Below, piece by piece: positions 782 to 6,555 of a stretch of DNA of 6,555 nucleotides (the stretch's first letter is position 1; each line of letters opens with the position of its first letter). The notes beneath the pieces are model-generated. The model ran no database searches, was not told the DNA's origin, and saw only the letters and a program-made list of their open reading frames with translations. Where the stretch lies: assembly GCA_021846605.1 (NCBI GenBank), contig JAJZWQ010000165.1:1-6555 (forward strand), written 5' to 3'. Source of the DNA: Bacillota bacterium (GTDB taxonomy: Bacteria > Bacillota_E > RBS10-35 > JAJYVN01). The position numbers and the translations under genes were made by a program.

Positions 782-1132
782 TCAGCCGCGGGGCCGGGCC
801 ACCAACGCCGCCAGGGTGCCGAAGATCACGGCCATGGTAATGCCGGCCGCCGAAGCGGTCAGACCGCCGCTCATCAGACCTTCGGCGCCTCGCTTACCCA
901 CCTCCTTGAAAATCCCTTGCACGAGGACGTTGCCGAAGCCGGTGAGGGGCACGCTGGCCCCGGCGCCGGCAAAGCGCACCAACGGCTCGTAGAGGCCGAG
1001 CCCGGCGAAGACCACTCCCAGCACGATGAACAGCACCATGGTGTGGGCTGTCGTCAGGGGAGTCAGGTCCACGACCAGCTGGGCAAGCGCGCACAGCCCA
1101 CCGCCGATCAGGAACGCCCAGACGAAAACCAC
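782..1132 (-). CDS. spoVAE: Stage V sporulation protein AE (SpoVAEb type)
   Basis: SpoVAE is a small polytopic inner-forespore-membrane protein of the SpoVA complex, which takes DPA into the spore core and releases it in germination. The chosen GTG at 1132 follows a GGGGG ribosome binding site at 8 bp and gives 116 residues, the usual family length. The longer open frame running back to 1651 is a shadow of spoVAD. Visible family features are FLIGGGLCALAQLVVD (7-22), an AGLGLYEPLVRFAGAGASVP segment (43-62), TGFGN (64-68), EGLMSGG (84-90) and a final hydrophobic span (about 92-112). Three to four membrane segments are likely. It is a paralogue of SpoVAC encoded in the same operon, and the two are thought to form the membrane channel together. 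It starts 13 bp after the spoVAD stop and is the last spoVA gene. No spoVAEa or spoVAF follows. Confidence 0.93.
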   Translation of the reverse strand: MVFVWAFLIGGGLCALAQLVVDLTPLTTAHTMVLFIVLGVVFAGLGLYEPLVRFAGAGASVPLTGFGNVLVQGIFKEVGKRGAEGLMSGGLTASAAGITMAVIFGTLAALVARPRG

Positions 1133-1145
1133 CGTGATCGCCCCC

Positions 1146-2219
1146 TCAAAGCAAACCCTGCCCGCCGTTCCCGGCATCCGCCGTTTCGATGGCCACGGCG
1201 TGGGCCACACCCGGAATCGTGGCGCCCTGCTGGTAGGTCGTCGGCGAGTGCAGGGAGCCGGTGGTGCACAGCAGCACCCGGCCGTAACGCCCGGCGGCGA
1301 GCCCCGGCAGGATACGTGCAGCAAAGACCAACCCAGAGCAGGCGGCGCCGCTGCCTCCGGCATGCACGTCCTGGTGCGTCGGGTCATACAACTCACGCCC
1401 GCAGTCGCGCAGCCGCATCTGGACCCCCTGGCGGTCCAATAGGTCCTGGCAGACCGGCACGCCAACCGCCGCCAGATCGCCCGTGAACACCGCCCCGTAC
1501 TGGCCGCCGTCGCGCCCCAGGTCGCGCAGGTGGGCCAACAGGGTGTCCGCGGCAGCGGGCGCCATGGCCCCGCCCATGTTGAACGGGTCCCGCACGCCGT
1601 AGTCGACCACACGGCCCGGAGTGAAGTGCGTGATGCGCGCAACCGGCTCACCCTGCCCTGCGCCGCCCACCGCTATGGCCACGGCGCCGGTGGCCGTCCA
1701 TTGGGCCGTGGGGGGCCGCTGGTTGCCCAACTCGGTCGGGAAGCGGTACTGGCGCTCGGCGGCGTCATGATGGCTGCTGACGGTGACGGCGACCCGCCGG
1801 CAATATCCGGCCGCGCACAGGGCCGCGGCCAGACCGAGCCCCTCGCCAAAGGTGGCGCATGCGCTGTATAGGCCGCAAAACGGGACATCCAGGTCACAGG
1901 CGGCAAAGCTGCTTGCCACGTTCTGATTCAACAGATCCCCGCCCAGCAGTAGGTCGAACTCCGTCTGCTGCCAGCCGATCTTGTCGCACAGGCGCCGGAA
2001 GGCACGCGCGAGCATCACCGACTCGGCCTGCTCCCAGGTCCTTTGGCCCAGAAGGTGTCCCTGGGTCACCTCGTCAAACTCGGGACCCAACGGACCCCGG
2101 CCCTCTGACGGGCCGGCCACCGAAGCGGCCCCGTAGATGTAGGCGCCCTGGAAGCAGATGGTCCGTCCCTTGCGGACGGCCGGCTCGCCTGCGGGCGCCG
2201 CCTCGACGGTCTGCGCCAC
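1146..2219 (-). CDS. spoVAD: Stage V sporulation protein AD, thiolase-fold DPA-binding protein
   Basis: SpoVAD is the soluble, membrane-associated SpoVA subunit; it binds DPA and has a thiolase/ketoacyl-synthase fold. GTG at 2219 is preferred because GGGAGGG lies 6 bp upstream; this yields 357 residues, slightly longer than the roughly 338 of Bacillus SpoVAD. A TTG 18 bp further upstream would overlap that ribosome binding site. Conserved stretches are GGDLLNQN (93-100), YSACATFGEGL with Cys121 at the thiolase nucleophile position, SSHHDAAERQYRFP (148-161), the NQRPPTAQWTATGA segment, NMGGAMAPAAADT, and DVHAGGSGAACSG with His286. The C terminus ends in the family's IPGVAHAVAIE followed by a short Gly-rich tail. 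The family is not known to be an active thiolase despite the fold. It lies 63 bp behind spoVAC and 13 bp before spoVAE, consistent with one transcript. Confidence 0.96.
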   Translation of the reverse strand: MAQTVEAAPAGEPAVRKGRTICFQGAYIYGAASVAGPSEGRGPLGPEFDEVTQGHLLGQRTWEQAESVMLARAFRRLCDKIGWQQTEFDLLLGGDLLNQNVASSFAACDLDVPFCGLYSACATFGEGLGLAAALCAAGYCRRVAVTVSSHHDAAERQYRFPTELGNQRPPTAQWTATGAVAIAVGGAGQGEPVARITHFTPGRVVDYGVRDPFNMGGAMAPAAADTLLAHLRDLGRDGGQYGAVFTGDLAAVGVPVCQDLLDRQGVQMRLRDCGRELYDPTHQDVHAGGSGAACSGLVFAARILPGLAAGRYGRVLLCTTGSLHSPTTYQQGATIPGVAHAVAIETADAGNGGQGLL

Positions 2220-2263
2220 ATCGTTCCCTCCCGTCAACTCTCACCCGGGTTGCGTACTGACTC

Positions 2264-2299
2264 GCCGGGGATGGCCGGCACCTCATTTGCCGGGGATGG
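2264..2299. repeat. 11-bp direct repeat at the spoVAC end
   Basis: GCCGGGGATGG occurs at 2264-2274 and again at 2289-2299, 25 bp apart. One copy encodes the last residues of SpoVAC (PIPG) and the other lies just past its stop in the spacer before spoVAD. The repeat is certain as sequence. A small local duplication is the simplest explanation, and no function is implied. Confidence 0.5.
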
Positions 2300-2747
2300 G
2301 TAGGCCGAGCACGATGTACACCGCACCAACCAGTGCGCTGGCCACCACCCCAAACACGATCACCGGGCCGGCAATGGTGAACATCTTGGCACCGACGCCG
2401 GTCACCCAGCCCTCCCGCCGCGACTCCATCGCCGCGGCGACGACGGCGTTGGAAAAGCCCGAGACGGGCAACTGGGCACCCATGCCGCCGATGCGCGCGA
2501 TCTCGTCATACAGGCCCAGCGCCGTCAGCGCTGCACCAGCCAGGATCACGATCACGGCGGTCCAGGCGCCCGCCCGCTCGGCGGGCAGGCCTGTCCGCTC
2601 GAACGCCCCCATGACGATCTGCGCCAACGCGCAGACCGAGCCACCGATCAAAAAGGCCAACACGGAGTTGGTCACCACAGGCACACCGGGCGTATGCCGA
2701 CGCAAGAGCCGCCGATACCGCTTGGCCTCGTCCTTGTCCGCGCGCAC
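2283..2747 (-). CDS. spoVAC: Stage V sporulation protein AC
   Basis: SpoVAC is a polytopic protein of the inner spore membrane and a core SpoVA component. In Bacillus it behaves as a mechanosensitive channel for DPA release. The start is GTG at 2747 with GGGAGG 7 bp upstream, giving 154 residues, close to the Bacillus length of about 150. The N-terminal 20 residues are basic and cytosolic (KDEAKRYRRLLRR). Then come FLIGGSVCALAQIVMGAF (32-49), a hydrophobic span 61-78, GLYDEIARIGGMGAQLPVSGFSN (78-100), EGWVTGVGAKMF (112-123) and a last span 125-148 containing GPVIVFGVV. The AFLIGG, PVSGFSN and VIVFGVV signatures are diagnostic. It begins 21 bp after the dodecin-like gene and precedes spoVAD by 63 bp. 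Its similarity to SpoVAE shows an old duplication. Confidence 0.96.
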   Translation of the reverse strand: MRADKDEAKRYRRLLRRHTPGVPVVTNSVLAFLIGGSVCALAQIVMGAFERTGLPAERAGAWTAVIVILAGAALTALGLYDEIARIGGMGAQLPVSGFSNAVVAAAMESRREGWVTGVGAKMFTIAGPVIVFGVVASALVGAVYIVLGLPIPGK

Positions 2748-2768: not shown

Positions 2769-2984
2769 TCAGGCACGCCTCCGGTTGTTGTCCACGGCAA
2801 AGGCGACCTTCACGTTGGTGGTAAAGCTCCGCACCTCGCCGTCTCGCACGTCGGCGGTCATGTTGACGACCTCCAGCCCGGTGATGTGGTCGACGCTTAA
2901 AGCCGCCTCGCGCAGGGCGTTCTCGGCCGCCTGCTGCCAGGATTCGTTGCTGGTGCCCACCAGGTCGAGAACCTTGATCACCAT
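2769..2984 (-). CDS. Dodecin-family protein lacking the flavin-binding residues
   Basis: This 71-residue protein has the full dodecin pattern: a first strand VIKVLDLVG, then GTSNESWQQAAENALREAAL (helix), a second strand GLEVV and a third FTTNVKVAFAVD. Dodecins form hollow dodecamers that store or buffer flavins. ATG at 2984 has an excellent GGGAGGGG five bases upstream. Aligned without gaps (from memory) to Halobacterium dodecin, the flavin-stacking Trp36 is Gly36 (codon GGG at 2877-2879) and the flavin-contacting Gln55 is Thr55. It is therefore a dodecin fold that probably does not bind flavin in the usual way. It sits between spoVAB (52 bp gap) and spoVAC (21 bp gap) inside the spoVA operon, so forespore expression and a spore role are likely. 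The family call is firm; the ligand and role are unknown. Confidence 0.88.
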   Translation of the reverse strand: MVIKVLDLVGTSNESWQQAAENALREAALSVDHITGLEVVNMTADVRDGEVRSFTTNVKVAFAVDNNRRRA

Positions 2985-3036
2985 GGTCACCCCTCCCGAC
3001 GTGTCTTCACTTTGCCCTGGACGGTGGACGCGCATG

Positions 3037-3477
3037 CTAGAAGGGCGGCCGGCTGAACAGACCCGGCACCGAGAACCAGAGCACCGCGCCCACCGCCTTG
3101 CCCAAGACGAGCGCCACGACCAGCAACGGCAGGTAACGGCGCAACCCCAGGCGGTGACCGGCCAGGACCAGCGACCCCACGGTTTCCGCCAGGCCCGCCA
3201 CCACCAGGCCGATGAAGGTTCCCATCGCAAGTCCGGCCAGCACGGCCAAGACCAAGGGCCCGTGCAGGCTGTAGGGCCAGACCTCGTATGCCGCCGCCGC
3301 CAGCGCGCCAAATACAAGCGCCCACTGGTAGCTGGTCACCCAGGTCTCGGTGCCGGTGACCACTGCCAACCGGATGGCGACGGCCAGGAGCACTACGAGG
3401 GCCGCCAGTGCGGCCCCCACGGCCACCCCCTCAGCCAGGCCCACTAGGGCCACCAGCACAATCAGCGCCGCCGCCAT
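3037..3477 (-). CDS. spoVAB: Stage V sporulation protein AB
   Basis: SpoVAB is an integral membrane protein of the SpoVA set, needed in Bacillus for DPA uptake into the forespore; its exact mechanism is not known. The frame gives 146 residues against about 141 in Bacillus. It is almost entirely hydrophobic, with four to five predicted spans (about 3-20, 22-40, 50-66, 72-100 and 112-138). The segment GTFIGLVVAGLAETVG (86-101) is characteristic, followed by a basic loop GHRLGLRR and a last span. ATG at 3477 overlaps the spoVAA stop by 16 bp; no clear ribosome binding site precedes it, so translation is probably coupled to spoVAA. A GTG at 3459 is a possible shorter start and would fit the Bacillus N terminus about as well. 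The long opposite-strand frame across this gene is a GC-driven shadow. Confidence 0.92.
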   Translation of the reverse strand: MAAALIVLVALVGLAEGVAVGAALAALVVLLAVAIRLAVVTGTETWVTSYQWALVFGALAAAAYEVWPYSLHGPLVLAVLAGLAMGTFIGLVVAGLAETVGSLVLAGHRLGLRRYLPLLVVALVLGKAVGAVLWFSVPGLFSRPPF

Positions 3478-4106
3478 CCCCGCTGGCGCCAGTAGCCGCG
3501 GAGGCGGGCCCGATGGCCCTCCAACTCGAGTTCCAAGGGGCCCGGGTCCCCACCCGCCCCACGCGGCAGGGAGAAGAAAAGGAGGACCCCCACCCCGATG
3601 CCGACGGCATAGGGGATCTCGATCGCCAACGGGTGCTGCACCCGCCTGCCTGTGGCGATGTAATACAACTCACGGTGGGCCGCGGGCATGTTGACGTCGG
3701 CGTGGAAATCCAGGAGGGTCGTGGCCGCCCCCAAAAAGAGCAGCACCCAGACGGCGGCGCCCAGAAGCCAACGCGGCACGCGGACCGGGCGCGCCGGGCG
3801 CACCAGCACGTCCCCGCCGAGCACCTCCCAGTGGATGTCTGGCGCAACCCGCCGCACCGCCGCCACCACCTCCAGCGGCGCGACCACCCGGGGGATTCGC
3901 CCGACGGGCGCGTTGCCCAGCGGCGCCCCCCGGGCTCGGGAAACGGCGGCTGGCGGACCCTCAAGGTCCGCCACATCGGCCACGCAAAGCGGCGCGCCGG
4001 GCCGCAGCCGGACCTCCGCGTGCAGGTGCAGGTAGCCCGCGGGGGCCGACTGCGGCCGCCGCAGCGGCCGGATGCGGAGATCGGCCCGGCGCAGGCGCCC
4101 GCTCAC
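3462..4106 (-). CDS. spoVAA: Stage V sporulation protein AA
   Basis: SpoVAA is a bitopic or two-span membrane protein of the spoVA operon with an N-terminal soluble domain. Its role in DPA transport is established genetically, but not its mechanism. GTG at 4106 overlaps the stop of the small membrane protein gene as GTGA and gives 214 residues against 206 in Bacillus. The open frame extends upstream to 4529 without a stop, but that part is not protein-like and covers sigF. Visible features are an N-terminal beta-rich domain (AGYLHLHAEVRLRPG, 23-37; VADVADLEG, 42-50), span one at 113-131, the signature DFHADVNMPAAHRELYYIATG (133-153), HPLAIEIPYAVGIGVG (158-173) leading into span two up to about 180, and a basic 30-residue tail. 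No Shine-Dalgarno precedes it, so coupling to the upstream small gene is likely. Confidence 0.93.
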   Translation of the reverse strand: MSGRLRRADLRIRPLRRPQSAPAGYLHLHAEVRLRPGAPLCVADVADLEGPPAAVSRARGAPLGNAPVGRIPRVVAPLEVVAAVRRVAPDIHWEVLGGDVLVRPARPVRVPRWLLGAAVWVLLFLGAATTLLDFHADVNMPAAHRELYYIATGRRVQHPLAIEIPYAVGIGVGVLLFFSLPRGAGGDPGPLELELEGHRARLRGYWRQRGWRRR

Positions 4107-4276
4107 GCTGCGCGGGGACCCGTATGGAGCCCGACCAGCACCAGCACGGCGCCCGCGGGTACGTGCTGTACGTTGCGGGCCCGCGTCCGCAGGAAGAACC
4201 CGCCGCCCAATACCAAGAGGGCGACCAGGACCACCGCGGCCGTCGCCCACAGGATGCGCGATTCCACCGTCAGCAC
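4103..4276 (-). CDS. Small single-span membrane protein at the head of the spoVA operon
   Basis: This 57-residue protein is not one I recognise. GTG at 4276 follows GGGAGG by 8 bp, which makes it the best start; the frame is open further upstream but overlaps sigF there. It begins MLTVESRIL, has one clear membrane helix (about 10-29, ending GGGFFLRTRAR), then a basic patch and a second, milder hydrophobic strand (VPAGAVLVLVGL, 39-50). By the positive-inside rule the C-terminal part would face the forespore cytoplasm. Its stop overlaps the spoVAA GTG as GTGA, and spoVAA has no ribosome binding site of its own, so the small gene probably drives spoVAA translation. It lies directly behind the candidate sigma-G promoter. 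It could be a new accessory SpoVA subunit or mainly a leader peptide. In the Bacillus arrangement I know, spoVAA follows sigF directly. Confidence 0.72.
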   Translation of the reverse strand: MLTVESRILWATAAVVLVALLVLGGGFFLRTRARNVQHVPAGAVLVLVGLHTGPRAA

Positions 4277-4300
4277 GCCCACCGCCTCCCTGCTGGCTGC

Positions 4301-4320: not shown

Positions 4321-4351
4321 CAGTATGCGACGGCGGGCCGGGGCGGCATGC
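4321..4351 (-). promoter_or_regulatory. Candidate sigma-G promoter of the spoVA operon
   Basis: On the minus strand GCATG (4351-4347) matches all five positions of the sigma-G -35 (G-A/C-ATR), and CATACTG (4327-4321) matches six of seven positions of the -10 (CATNHTA). The spacer is 19 bp, one or two longer than usual. It falls in the 80-bp gap between sigF and the small membrane protein gene, exactly where sigma-G drives spoVA in Bacillus subtilis. The predicted start lies near 4314, leaving a leader of about 38 nt. The match is seen directly; use by sigma-G is inferred. Confidence 0.6.
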
Positions 4352-4356
4352 GGAGA

Positions 4357-5151
4357 TCAGCCGGGCGGCGCTTCCAGCCATTGACGACGGAGCGTCTCCA
4401 CCGCCCGTTTCTCCAGGCGGGAAATCTGCGGTTGCGACAACCCCAGGAGCGCCCCCACCTCGGCCTGCGAACGGTCCCGGTAGTACCGGAGGACCAGTAC
4501 CTGACGTTGGCGCGGCGGCAGGCGCCCAATCAGCGCCCGCAGCACGGCCTCTTCCCAACCCTCCAGGCCTCCCGCCGCCAGCCGTTCGTGCAACGGGCGG
4601 CCGCCATCGGTCTCGCCCGTCGTGATTTCGTCCAGGGATGCAGGGCGGCGGGCGGCCTCCAGCGCCAGGGCCAGTTCCGCGCCGGAGACACCCAGGGCTT
4701 CGGCCACCTCACCCGCGCTCGGCACGCGCCCCCGTTCGGCGGCGAGGCGGTCCTCGACGGCGCGCGCCTGTTGGGCCAGGCGGTAGGCGCCGCGGCCCAG
4801 GCCCGGCGGCGCCGCGTCCCGCAGGTACCGCTGGATCTCTCCAAGGATCAGGGGCACGGCGTACGTCGAAAAGCGTGTGCCACGCTCCGGGTCAAAGCGA
4901 TCGACCGCCTTGACCAAGCCCAGGCAACCCACCTGAAATAGCTCCTCGGGATCGTGCCCGGACAGGCGGTAGCGCCGCACGACGTGGTGTACCAGATTGA
5001 GGTTGCGCGTCACCAACCGTTCACGGGCGCGGCGATCACCCGCCGCCGCCTGGCGGGCAAGGCGGCGGACCTGGGCGGGCTGGAGCACGCCGCGGTTCTT
5101 CTGCCGCGCCCGGCGCAATGGTACCCGGCGCTTGCGGGGTCGCTCCGTCAC
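4357..5151 (-). CDS. sigF: RNA polymerase sigma-F factor (forespore)
   Basis: SigF (SpoIIAC) is the first forespore-specific sigma factor; it directs RNA polymerase to early forespore genes and is held inactive by SpoIIAB. The protein has 264 residues (about 255 in Bacillus). Region 2 runs from about 45 to 113 and contains LFQVGCLGLVKAVDRFDPERG, RFSTYAVPLILGEIQRYLRD (93-112). Region 3 is about 118-178 with GRVPSAGEVAEALGV. Region 4 is about 205-256 with LRYYRDRSQAEVG and the recognition helix SQPQISRLEKRA (239-250). GTG at 5151 overlaps the spoIIAB stop as GTGA and lacks a Shine-Dalgarno, so it is translationally coupled to its own inhibitor. The first 20 residues are very basic (about half Lys/Arg), which is unusual for this protein. 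A GTG at 5088 is an alternative but also lacks a ribosome binding site. Confidence 0.96.
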   Translation of the reverse strand: MTERPRKRRVPLRRARQKNRGVLQPAQVRRLARQAAAGDRRARERLVTRNLNLVHHVVRRYRLSGHDPEELFQVGCLGLVKAVDRFDPERGTRFSTYAVPLILGEIQRYLRDAAPPGLGRGAYRLAQQARAVEDRLAAERGRVPSAGEVAEALGVSGAELALALEAARRPASLDEITTGETDGGRPLHERLAAGGLEGWEEAVLRALIGRLPPRQRQVLVLRYYRDRSQAEVGALLGLSQPQISRLEKRAVETLRRQWLEAPPG

Positions 5152-5624
5152 TGGCGTTCGGCGGCGTTGGCCACCGCCTGCGGCTGCTTGCGCATGCGCA
5201 CGAGGGTGCCCCGTCCCGGTTCGGACTCCACCTCCAGGGCGTCAGTGAACTGCTCCATGAAGGCGAACCCGAGACCGCTGTGGTCGGGATCGGTCGAGGT
5301 GGTGAACGCGGGTTGGCGGGCCTGGGCGATGTCGGCGATGCCGCACCCCCAGTCCTGCACCTCGACCTGGATGGCGGCCATGCCCTCCAGGTGGGCACGC
5401 AGGCGGACCCTCCCCGGCGCGTCCGGATAGGCGTGCAGCACGCAGTTACCGATGGCCTCGTCCACGGCCACCTTCAGTTGGTCGATCTCGGCCAGCGTGA
5501 ACGGTAGCCCACCGGCCAACACCGCCACCGCAATCCGGCCGATCTCCGCGCTCTCGGGGAGGCTTGGCAGGGCCAGTTCCAGCCACATCGCGATCGTCGC
5601 CCCGGGCCCGTCATCCCAGGCCAT
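5148..5624 (-). CDS. spoIIAB: Anti-sigma F factor and serine kinase SpoIIAB
   Basis: SpoIIAB binds and blocks SigF and phosphorylates SpoIIAA using ATP; it belongs to the GHKL kinase fold. The frame gives 158 residues (146 in Bacillus). The N box is VAVDEAIGNCVLHAY with Glu56 and Asn60, the G1 box is DWGCGI with Asp91, and ARQPAFTT (102-109) and SGLGFAFMEQF (116-126, G2 box) follow. All expected ATP-site residues are present. ATG at 5624 is preferred because a GGGGGAGGGGG stretch lies 9 bp upstream, inside the spoIIAA end; this makes a 14-bp overlap with spoIIAA. An ATG at 5588 matches the Bacillus N terminus better (MWLELALPSL against MHLEFSALS), but its ribosome binding site is weak. The C-terminal 15 residues are a polar tail. 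Its stop overlaps the sigF start. Confidence 0.96.
   Translation of the reverse strand: MAWDDGPGATIAMWLELALPSLPESAEIGRIAVAVLAGGLPFTLAEIDQLKVAVDEAIGNCVLHAYPDAPGRVRLRAHLEGMAAIQVEVQDWGCGIADIAQARQPAFTTSTDPDHSGLGFAFMEQFTDALEVESEPGRGTLVRMRKQPQAVANAAERQ
5160..5178 (-). promoter_or_regulatory. Hairpin next to the sigF start
   Basis: The end of spoIIAB on the coding strand can fold as GGCGGUG-GCCAA-CGCCGCC, a seven-pair stem (one G-U) with a five-base loop. Its 3' edge lies 8 bases before the sigF GTG, where a ribosome binding site would normally be. Ribosomes finishing spoIIAB would open it. It may enforce coupled SpoIIAB/SigF synthesis, or be incidental to GC-rich coding sequence. Confidence 0.35.
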
Positions 5625-5967
5625 CGCCTGCGACCCCCTCCCCCACGGCGGCGCGTTCGGTGGGGAAAACGCTCACCGATCGTCCCAGCGCCACCATGTC
5701 CAAAACACTTCGGGCCACCCCACCTGGCGGCACCAGGGCCAGGGCCCGACCGGCCTCCTGAAGCCGCCGGATACGGCCCAGGATGGCGCCCAGCCCGGTC
5801 GAGTCCAGAAACGTCAGGCGGCTGAGGTTGAGGATGGTCTTGGCCGCCGGGTTCCCGGCGAGCACCTCGTCCACCCGTTGGCGGAATTCCGCGGCAGTGC
5901 GGACGTCCAAGTCGCCGCTGACGCGAAGCACCAGCGTTCCGGCGTGTACATGCGTCGTCACCTGCAC
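5611..5967 (-). CDS. spoIIAA: Anti-anti-sigma F factor SpoIIAA
   Basis: SpoIIAA is a STAS-domain protein that in its dephosphorylated form displaces SigF from SpoIIAB; SpoIIAB phosphorylates it and the phosphatase SpoIIE reactivates it. The start is GTG at 5967, with GGAGGT 9 bp upstream, giving 118 residues (117 in Bacillus). The longer frame back to a TTG at 5988 would swallow that ribosome binding site. The STAS core is complete: LVLRVSGDLDVRTAAEF (12-28), TILNLSRLTFLDSTGLG (44-60) and the ALALVPPGGVARSVLDM segment (76-92). Ser56 in LDSTGLG aligns with Bacillus Ser58, the phosphorylated serine. It is the first gene of the spoIIA operon, 94 bp after dacF, and overlaps spoIIAB by 14 bp. SpoIIE is encoded elsewhere. 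Confidence 0.96.
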   Translation of the reverse strand: MQVTTHVHAGTLVLRVSGDLDVRTAAEFRQRVDEVLAGNPAAKTILNLSRLTFLDSTGLGAILGRIRRLQEAGRALALVPPGGVARSVLDMVALGRSVSVFPTERAAVGEGVAGDGLG

Positions 5968-6000
5968 GACTGCGCCACCTCCGCCCAAGCCCGGGGCAGG

Positions 6001-6061: not shown

Positions 6062-6555
6062 CTATGCGCGCAGCCAGGGCCACATTCCGGCCCAAAGGCG
6101 CAGCCAGAGGCGGAAACCGCTAATGCGCGGCACCCCGTGGGCGGCGACGAGGGGGACCGTGGCGACCGGTTTGCCGTCCACCCGCACCGTGATCTCCCCG
6201 ACCGCCTGGCCGGCCTTGACCGGCGCGGCTACGGTGTTGGGCAGGGTGGTCTCGCTGATCACCGCCTTCTCCTGGCCCCGGGGCACGGTGACGCCAAACG
6301 CCCGCGCTGGCACGATTGAAACCGTATGCACCAATCCCCCGTCCACCGGAAGCTTGGCGATCACCTTGCCCTGGGTCGAGACGGGCACGGTATTGTAGTG
6401 CGTCAAGCCCCAGCGGAGCATCGCGGCGCTTTCACTGAAGCGCAGCGCGCTGGACGGCTCGCCGAGGACCACGGCGATCAGGCGCGTGTTGCCTTGCTTG
6501 GCCGTCGCCGCCAGGCAGTATCCGGCGAGCTGCGTGAAGCCGGTCTTCAGGCCGT
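6062..6555 (-). CDS. dacF: D-alanyl-D-alanine carboxypeptidase DacF, C-terminal part
   Basis: This is a low-molecular-mass penicillin-binding protein that removes the terminal D-alanine from peptidoglycan stem peptides; the sporulation version adjusts cross-linking in the spore envelope. Only the last 163 residues are in the window; the catalytic SxxK and SxN motifs lie beyond the right edge. The visible part starts within the third active-site motif, GLKTGFT (KTG box), followed by AGYCLAATA and RLIAVVLGEPSS. From about visible residue 55 begins the beta-rich C-terminal domain of the PBP5 family (KVIAKLPVDGG, TLPNTVAAPVKAGQAVGEITV). The protein ends in a Trp/Arg-rich amphipathic helix (FRLWLRLWAGMWPWLRA), the usual membrane anchor of this family. 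The stop is TAG. The dacF name rests on position directly before spoIIAA, as in Bacillus. No terminator follows, so read-through into spoIIA is likely. Confidence 0.92.
   Translation of the reverse strand, partial: GLKTGFTQLAGYCLAATAKQGNTRLIAVVLGEPSSALRFSESAAMLRWGLTHYNTVPVSTQGKVIAKLPVDGGLVHTVSIVPARAFGVTVPRGQEKAVISETTLPNTVAAPVKAGQAVGEITVRVDGKPVATVPLVAAHGVPRISGFRLWLRLWAGMWPWLRA

Follow-up and report, generated by a model that had tools for sequence, protein, structure and literature searches.

The 6,555-nt stretch of DNA analysed here (the window; positions 1 to 6,555 of contig JAJZWQ010000165.1, from a Bacillota bacterium) carries a dodecin-family gene in its spoVA operon, and similar genes occupy a place beside spoVAC in many other Bacillota. 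We propose that it codes for a sporulation-type dodecin, which the forespore would express from the sigF-spoVA cluster. The protein would form a dodecamer with pockets for a small, non-flavin anionic ligand and would work beside SpoVA, with dipicolinate (DPA) or Ca-DPA as the first candidate ligand. We put the probability of this reading at about one half. Its support is computed and consists of the fold, the conserved genetic place, the co-occurrence with SpoVAD, the enrichment of sigma-G-like sites and the replacement of flavin-site residues.

The dodecin gene and its operon in the window

The spoVA-linked dodecin gene (2769..2984, minus strand) translates without inner stops into 71 residues, including Gly36, Asn41, Thr43, Thr55 and Asn57. 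The Pfam profile PF07311 covers the protein in full (1-64/64; E 1.5e-21), with a score of 76.9 bits that is above the gathering cut-off of 22.5. By reading, a Shine-Dalgarno-like GGGAGGGG (2990..2997, minus strand) is found 5 nt before the ATG. The preliminary description of a complete dodecin-like gene with a ribosome binding site, located between spoVAB and spoVAC, is thus borne out, and both neighbours are confirmed by Pfam.

The genes of the window are all on the minus strand, in the order dacF (end), spoIIAA, spoIIAB, sigF, putative spoVAA, spoVAB, dodecin, spoVAC, spoVAD and spoVAE. The dodecin gene is separated from spoVAB by 52 nt and from spoVAC by 21 nt. At the upstream end, the C-terminal part of a DacF-type D-Ala-D-Ala carboxypeptidase (6062..6553; PF07943 E 7.4e-19, PF00768 E 4.4e-9) runs off the window. 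It is followed by spoIIAA (5611..5988; STAS domain PF01740, E 5.1e-20), spoIIAB (5148..5624; PF13581, E 2.8e-21) and sigF (4357..5151), whose best matches are SigF/SigG family models, below the NCBIfam cut-offs. We assigned the putative spoVAA (3462..4106) by its position and its relatives in loci L001, L002, L186, L190 and L240, as Pfam and NCBIfam searches gave no match, and spoVAB (3037..3477) by PF13782 (E 2.5e-18), with no match in an NCBIfam search. Downstream of the dodecin gene, spoVAC (2283..2747) matches PF03862 (E 4.4e-35) and, as its best NCBIfam hit, the SpoVAC model, below its cut-off; spoVAD (1146..2237) matches PF07451 (E 3.5e-117) and an NCBIfam SpoVAD subfamily model, above its cut-off. 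The Eb-type spoVAE (782..1132), whose start we read as the GTG at 1132, matches PF03862 (E 8e-31, in a search with 782-1141), and its best NCBIfam hit is the SpoVAE model, below cut-off. Two other open stretches on the minus strand have no Pfam match. One is an ORF of 169 codons past spoVAE (150-659), which also lacks an NCBIfam match, and the other comprises about 60 open codons in the interval between sigF and the putative spoVAA (4103-4285) and has the look of a short membrane segment. The window dodecin has 37 database homologues at 69-94% identity. Among the best 80 of 492 SpoVAD relatives, the closest proteins are from the Bacillota MAGs TL1-3.bin6 (67% identity) and MAS3.bin161 (69%).

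The AlphaFold2 monomer model of the window dodecin (mean pLDDT 94) shows the beta-alpha-beta-beta dodecin fold, and every one of its 29 PDB matches at E up to 1e-3 is a dodecin. Three spore-type dodecins were tested against the NCBIfam equivalog models and missed the cut-offs, with 47-58 bits vs 75 for DodecBact and 45-49 bits vs 100 for dodecin_Halo. This is a weak argument, since the SpoVAC, SpoVAE and SigF proteins of the window miss theirs too. The 83-member representative set of dodecins omits L263 and L280, and one alignment omits L298. A dodecin tree (98 rows, 69 columns) is poorly resolved. Three groups require three changes on this tree, the minimum being two; Gly36 dodecins of haloarchaea are placed among the spore type, and the Halobacterium dodecin forms a long branch beside the window protein.

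Recurrence of the dodecin place across Bacillota

We collected a draw of 199 Bacillota genomes, 119 of which have a dodecin, and examined the neighbourhood of each of the 122 dodecins (about 4 kb on each side). A spoVAC, spoVAD or spoVAE gene is found downstream, on the same strand and within 2.5 kb, in 94/122 cases, so that the place beside spoVAC is kept across lineages. Upstream on the same strand, sigF precedes 91 of the 122. Both associations hold for 82 dodecins, at least one for 103 and neither for 19. When sigF, spoVA, GerA-type or YqfD genes are counted anywhere in the fetched stretch and on either strand, 113/122 dodecins have such a neighbour and nine have none. The gap between sigF and dodecin is typically 49-675 nt (86 measured), and that between dodecin and spoVAC is mostly <150 nt (92 measured).

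The exact spoVAB-dodecin-spoVAC order of the window occurs in 5 of 135 contexts (13 extra ones besides the 122 from the draw), namely L186, L190, L240, L264 and L286. In these loci SpoVAA/SpoVAB genes lie between sigF and dodecin; four of them are among the 82 loci of the draw with both associations and one is an extra locus, and L264 and L286 are close kin of the window. The recurrence that the preliminary description had proposed to look for is therefore found, as a place beside spoVAC across Bacillota and as the exact order in five further loci, including two from close kin. An insertion in a single genome is rejected, as 94/122 dodecins adjoin spoVA genes. Nor is the gene peculiar to a high-GC lineage; it belongs to the sigF-spoVA cluster in a wide range of genomes.

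Gene order is kept among 79 loci whose dodecins have a median identity of 58% and a lowest identity of 38%. In Mantel tests, dodecin distances correlate with those of SpoVAD (r 0.55) and SigF (r 0.56), with p 0.001; the value for SpoVAD vs SigF is 0.80.

Taking the best 80 of 492 SpoVAD relatives, 14 loci carry, upstream of spoVAD, a dodecin ORF that adjoins spoVAC. No dodecin was found in the fetched flanks of the other 66, many of them from Bacilli, or in the B. subtilis control. The genomes of 30 of these 66 loci were searched, and 8 have a dodecin elsewhere. Four of the eight, from two Pelotomaculum genomes (L295 and L297), Dethiobacter (L296) and Peptococcaceae BICA1-7 (L294), have a GerA-type gene nearby and are described below. 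Lucifera butyrica has two copies, one (L142) behind sigF and before spoVA genes and the other (L149) with neither. The L147 dodecin is behind sigF, and those of L143 and L148 are near contig ends, with no sigF, spoVA or GerA-type genes.

Some genomes have two copies of these components. Six (G025, G093, G110, G144, G174 and G199) have two SpoVAD genes each, with a dodecin beside one only. Close kin of the window (G001, G002 and G003) have a second Gly36-type dodecin (L271 3798-4034, L287 3360-4043 and L288 974-1219), which in L271 and L287 points away from an adjoining gene for YqfD (stage IV sporulation).

SpoVAD is matched in 174 of the 199 genomes, above the cut-off in 171. It is present above the cut-off in 117/119 dodecin genomes vs 54/80 others (Fisher p 5e-10, uncorrected for kinship and incomplete genomes), with SpoVAD matches of E >1e-4 (G040, G105 and G182) counted as absent. 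Two genomes depart from this pattern. In G126 the dodecin lies close to the end of a contig, next to sigF and spoVA genes, and in G198 it belongs to a different type (Val36). Conversely, 54 of the 171 genomes with SpoVAD have no dodecin. The B. subtilis control lacks it too, so dodecin is dispensable there.

We considered whether the dodecin might stand in for another SpoVA protein. Replacement of SpoVAA/SpoVAB is rejected, since the window has both proteins, as do L186, L190, L240, L264 and L286. Replacement of the cytosolic SpoVAE1/SpoVAEa (PF14097) is rejected as well: it is found in 43/119 dodecin genomes and 19/80 others, and among SpoVAD genomes the two presences are unrelated (odds ratio 1.07, p 0.87).

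Sigma-G-like sites upstream of dodecin genes

A promoter matrix was seeded from the B. subtilis sigma-G consensus, and sites with scores >12 were sought within 250 nt upstream of the genes. The 130 upstream regions do not include five loci in which SpoVAA/B precede dodecin; these were scored apart. A first scan with regular expressions, superseded by the matrix, had given 19 and 24 of the 130 regions vs about 2 in dinucleotide shuffles. In a split-half test of the matrix, 37/65 and 32/65 regions scored above 12, with 0 in the antisense direction and 3.8 and 4.6 in plain (single-base) shuffles. The 135 contexts were then divided into classes, and a matrix trained on the 81 sigF-dodecin-spoVA loci among them gave 58/81 on this training set. 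Held-out sigF-dodecin loci without spoVAC/D downstream, some of which are close kin, gave 9/12 (antisense 1/12, shuffles 0.7/12). Dodecin loci with spoVA and without sigF gave 6/12 (antisense 0, shuffles 0.6), and those with neither 6/25 (antisense 0, shuffles 1.5). As controls, the regions upstream of spoIIAA and spoVAD gave 3/93 and 2/97, respectively.

None of the five loci with SpoVAA/B before dodecin had a site above 12 in the 250 nt before the dodecin gene, which fits a promoter further upstream without showing one. The highest-scoring site of the window, both strands considered, is a candidate sigma-G-like promoter, CGCATG-N19-CATACTG (4321..4352, minus strand), between sigF and the putative spoVAA. 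Its score of 6.5 is below the thresholds used elsewhere. Thus, because sigma-G-like sites precede dodecin in 58/81 loci, and in 9/12 held-out loci vs 0.7 in shuffles, dodecin is probably a forespore gene and would often be the first of the spoVA transcript.

Residues of the former flavin site

Positions are numbered as in the Halobacterium dodecin, where 36 and 55 have a role in flavin binding. Residues were tabulated for 121 dodecins, that is, the 122 of the draw minus L263 (Val36). Position 36 is Gly in 120/121 and Glu in 1/121; none has Trp. The other frequent residues are Thr43 (119/121), Asn41 (118/121), Trp16 (117/121) and Lys55 (116/121), and Ala19, Ser12 and Trp16 are as conserved as columns 36, 41, 43 and 55. 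Since residue 55 is Thr in the window and Ser or Arg in its close kin, Lys55 is not a universal anion site. Val36 is found in a single dodecin of the draw, that of the SpoVAD-less genome G198, and in one from Microvirga.

In known dodecins, flavins are held between symmetry-related paired tryptophans (PMC7414021), and in Rv1498A the tryptophan named is Trp39 (PMC8044443). The window protein has Gly36 for Trp36, Thr43 for Arg43 and Thr55 for Gln55. Among four proteobacterial plasmid dodecins, three have Trp36, Arg43 and Gln55, and the fourth, of Microvirga, is the one with Val36. Judged by these residues, the spore-type dodecin is no classical flavin dodecin. This suggests that many proteins of spore-formers named dodecin in databases, or flavin-binding dodecin as in some sources, are not flavin proteins. 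Because the Trp36 clamp and two further site residues are replaced, it should not be assumed that an aromatic similar to flavin is stored by the mechanism of known dodecins. This part of the preliminary description, a store of a small aromatic molecule, finds no support in that mechanism, whereas its forespore protein is likely in view of the sigma-G-like sites and the co-occurrence with SpoVAD.

Proposed role and alternatives

In the reading that we favour, the sigF-spoVA cluster would supply the forespore with a small soluble protein of dodecin fold. Its gene would commonly open a sigma-G-type transcript, dodecin-spoVAC-spoVAD-spoVAE, and in the window come behind spoVAA-spoVAB. The protein would assemble into a dodecin dodecamer, whose former flavin pockets, with Gly36 and mostly Lys55, may take a small anionic ligand that is not a flavin. 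It would act next to the SpoVA machine, either in the forespore or in the spore core. If the ligand is dipicolinate or Ca-dipicolinate, the first candidate, it might be buffered or ordered during loading or release. Points against this reading are Thr55 in the window, the low score of the window's promoter candidate, the 0/5 result for loci with SpoVAA/B before dodecin, the 6/25 result for dodecins with neither sigF nor spoVA, the nine dodecins that have no sigF, spoVA, GerA-type or YqfD neighbour, the SpoVAD genomes that lack dodecin, and the haloarchaeal dodecins with a similar pocket. A bolder version extends to many spore-formers outside Bacilli. There, a spore-core cage of Gly36 dodecin, co-made with the SpoVA channel, would use the former flavin sites to bind dipicolinate or Ca-dipicolinate, and would thereby nucleate, buffer or pace how the spore's main small molecule is loaded and released. 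We regard this extension as unlikely.

The alternative that survives best, which we also consider unlikely, is an accessory or assembly factor of a SpoVA/SpoVAF complex, with a dodecamer on the cytosolic face of SpoVAC/D/E or of a GerA-type protein and no small ligand. The tight link with spoVAC (94/122) is in its favour, and so are the loci in which a GerA-type gene follows where spoVAC/D are absent. In nine cases in the draw, a dodecin comes after sigF but has no spoVAC/D downstream. A GerA-type gene follows in six of these loci (L188, L207, L239, L252, L261 and L280) and in three extra loci (L295 and L297 of Pelotomaculum and the Dethiobacter MAG L296), in which the dodecin is behind sigF and the GerA-type gene downstream. 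It directly follows the dodecin in L188, L207 and L296. By coordinates, the order is sigF-dodecin-SpoVAE1 (spoVAEa)-GerA-type in G047, G061, G097 and G099 (L239, L261, L280 and L252), with no spoVAC/D/Eb between and a SpoVAD gene elsewhere in the genome; with the GerA-type gene after SpoVAE1, part of a spoVA-like operon therefore remains in these genomes. These four loci are among the 12 held out in the promoter analysis. Five dodecins without sigF or spoVA (L175, L177, L212, L216 and L220) likewise adjoin a GerA-type gene, and that of Peptococcaceae BICA1-7 (L294) is by one too. SpoVAF is a GerA-family protein, and the genes downstream of dodecin in L175, L177, L212, L216, L220, L188, L207 and L296 possibly code for SpoVAF. 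An accessory factor is less easily reconciled with several of the most conserved columns being at or near the former ligand site (36, 41, 43 and 55), although Ala19, Ser12 and Trp16 equal them, and with the 54 SpoVAD genomes that lack dodecin.

Somewhat more doubtful is a buffer of calcium or other cations in the spore core, akin to the calcium dodecin Rv0379 (3onr). Spore cores are rich in Ca2+, and 3onr is matched by both sequence and fold, with Ser-Trp at positions 15-16 and no Trp clamp at position 36. Nevertheless, the likeness is one of overall similarity, position 36 being Val rather than Gly in the Rv0379 type and other columns differing too. Slightly less probable again is a flavin store or scavenger packed for outgrowth, that is, an ordinary dodecin with a forespore promoter. 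The fold and family match would be as expected for such a protein, and in other organisms dodecins hold flavins between tryptophan pairs (PMC7414021). However, the stacking Trp is absent from 121/121 draw members and positions 43 and 55 are changed; the missed NCBIfam equivalog cut-offs of the three tested proteins are a weak point against it. A fortuitous or recent insertion with no link to sporulation is very improbable: although dodecin is missing from the B. subtilis control and from the fetched flanks of 66 of the best 80 SpoVAD loci, the recurrence in 94/122 cases, the divergence of the proteins and the upstream promoter sites contradict it.

The list of spoVA genes derives mainly from Bacillus and Clostridium. 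It would gain a conserved member, probably expressed in the forespore, that is absent from the B. subtilis control and found in many other Bacillota lineages. Furthermore, a soluble partner of the channel would make testable a part of the question of how DPA gets into the core and is kept there at very high levels. Our literature search, which left subscription papers, preprints and supplements outside, found no paper joining dodecin and spoVA, nor, among the papers listed, a sporulation dodecin by title or start of abstract. The word dodecin is absent from the main text of the 2012 catalogue of sporulation genes (PMC3533761).

Comparison with known dodecins and SpoVA operons

A plasmid search with the window protein as query gave 24 matching records, nine of which were opened; seven were haloarchaeal, and four of these were read. 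These haloarchaeal dodecins (Natrinema, Halalkalicoccus, Halobaculum and Haladaptatus), picked for likeness by the choice of query, share 37-45% identity with the window protein. Like the spore type they have Trp16, Gly36, Thr43 and Lys or Arg55, but they have Ser, Gly or Asp41 and Thr57, whereas the spore type has Asn41 and Asn or Asp57. No spore genes were seen among the annotated features shown near them; the neighbours of these Gly36-type dodecins (L300, L305, L306 and L307) code for universal stress proteins, a CBS domain, a pyrophosphatase and others. Gly36 alone is thus rejected as a mark of sporulation. Since haloarchaea make no endospores and their dodecins share these residues, the remodelled pocket need not serve DPA, and this sharing speaks against a pocket exclusive to spores. 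An intermediate type, with Ser36, Asn41, Gln43, Arg55 and Asn57, is encoded on an 809-kb plasmid of Peptoclostridium acidaminophilum (L299 4995-5198), where it precedes a DEAD/DEAH helicase gene.

With the flavin dodecins of Halobacterium salinarum (2cc6/1mog), Thermus thermophilus (2cz8), H. halophila (2vxa) and M. tuberculosis (Rv1498A, 2yiz), the spore type has in common its length, the beta-alpha-beta-beta fold and PF07311. It differs from them by Gly36 instead of Trp36, by Thr43 instead of the bacterial-type Arg43, by Lys in most members, and Thr in the window, instead of Gln55, and by its link to sigF/spoVA. The calcium dodecin Rv0379/SecE2 (3onr) resembles the spore type in its dodecin fold, its Ser-Trp at 15-16 and its lack of Trp36, but its position 36 is Val instead of Gly, and it diverges in further columns.

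The SpoVA operon of B. subtilis and clostridia has the layout spoVAA-AB-AC-AD-AE(a/b)-AF. As in that operon, spoVAC, spoVAD and spoVAE follow sigF in the usual order, and the window also has spoVAB. What sets the present operons apart is the dodecin gene upstream of spoVAC.
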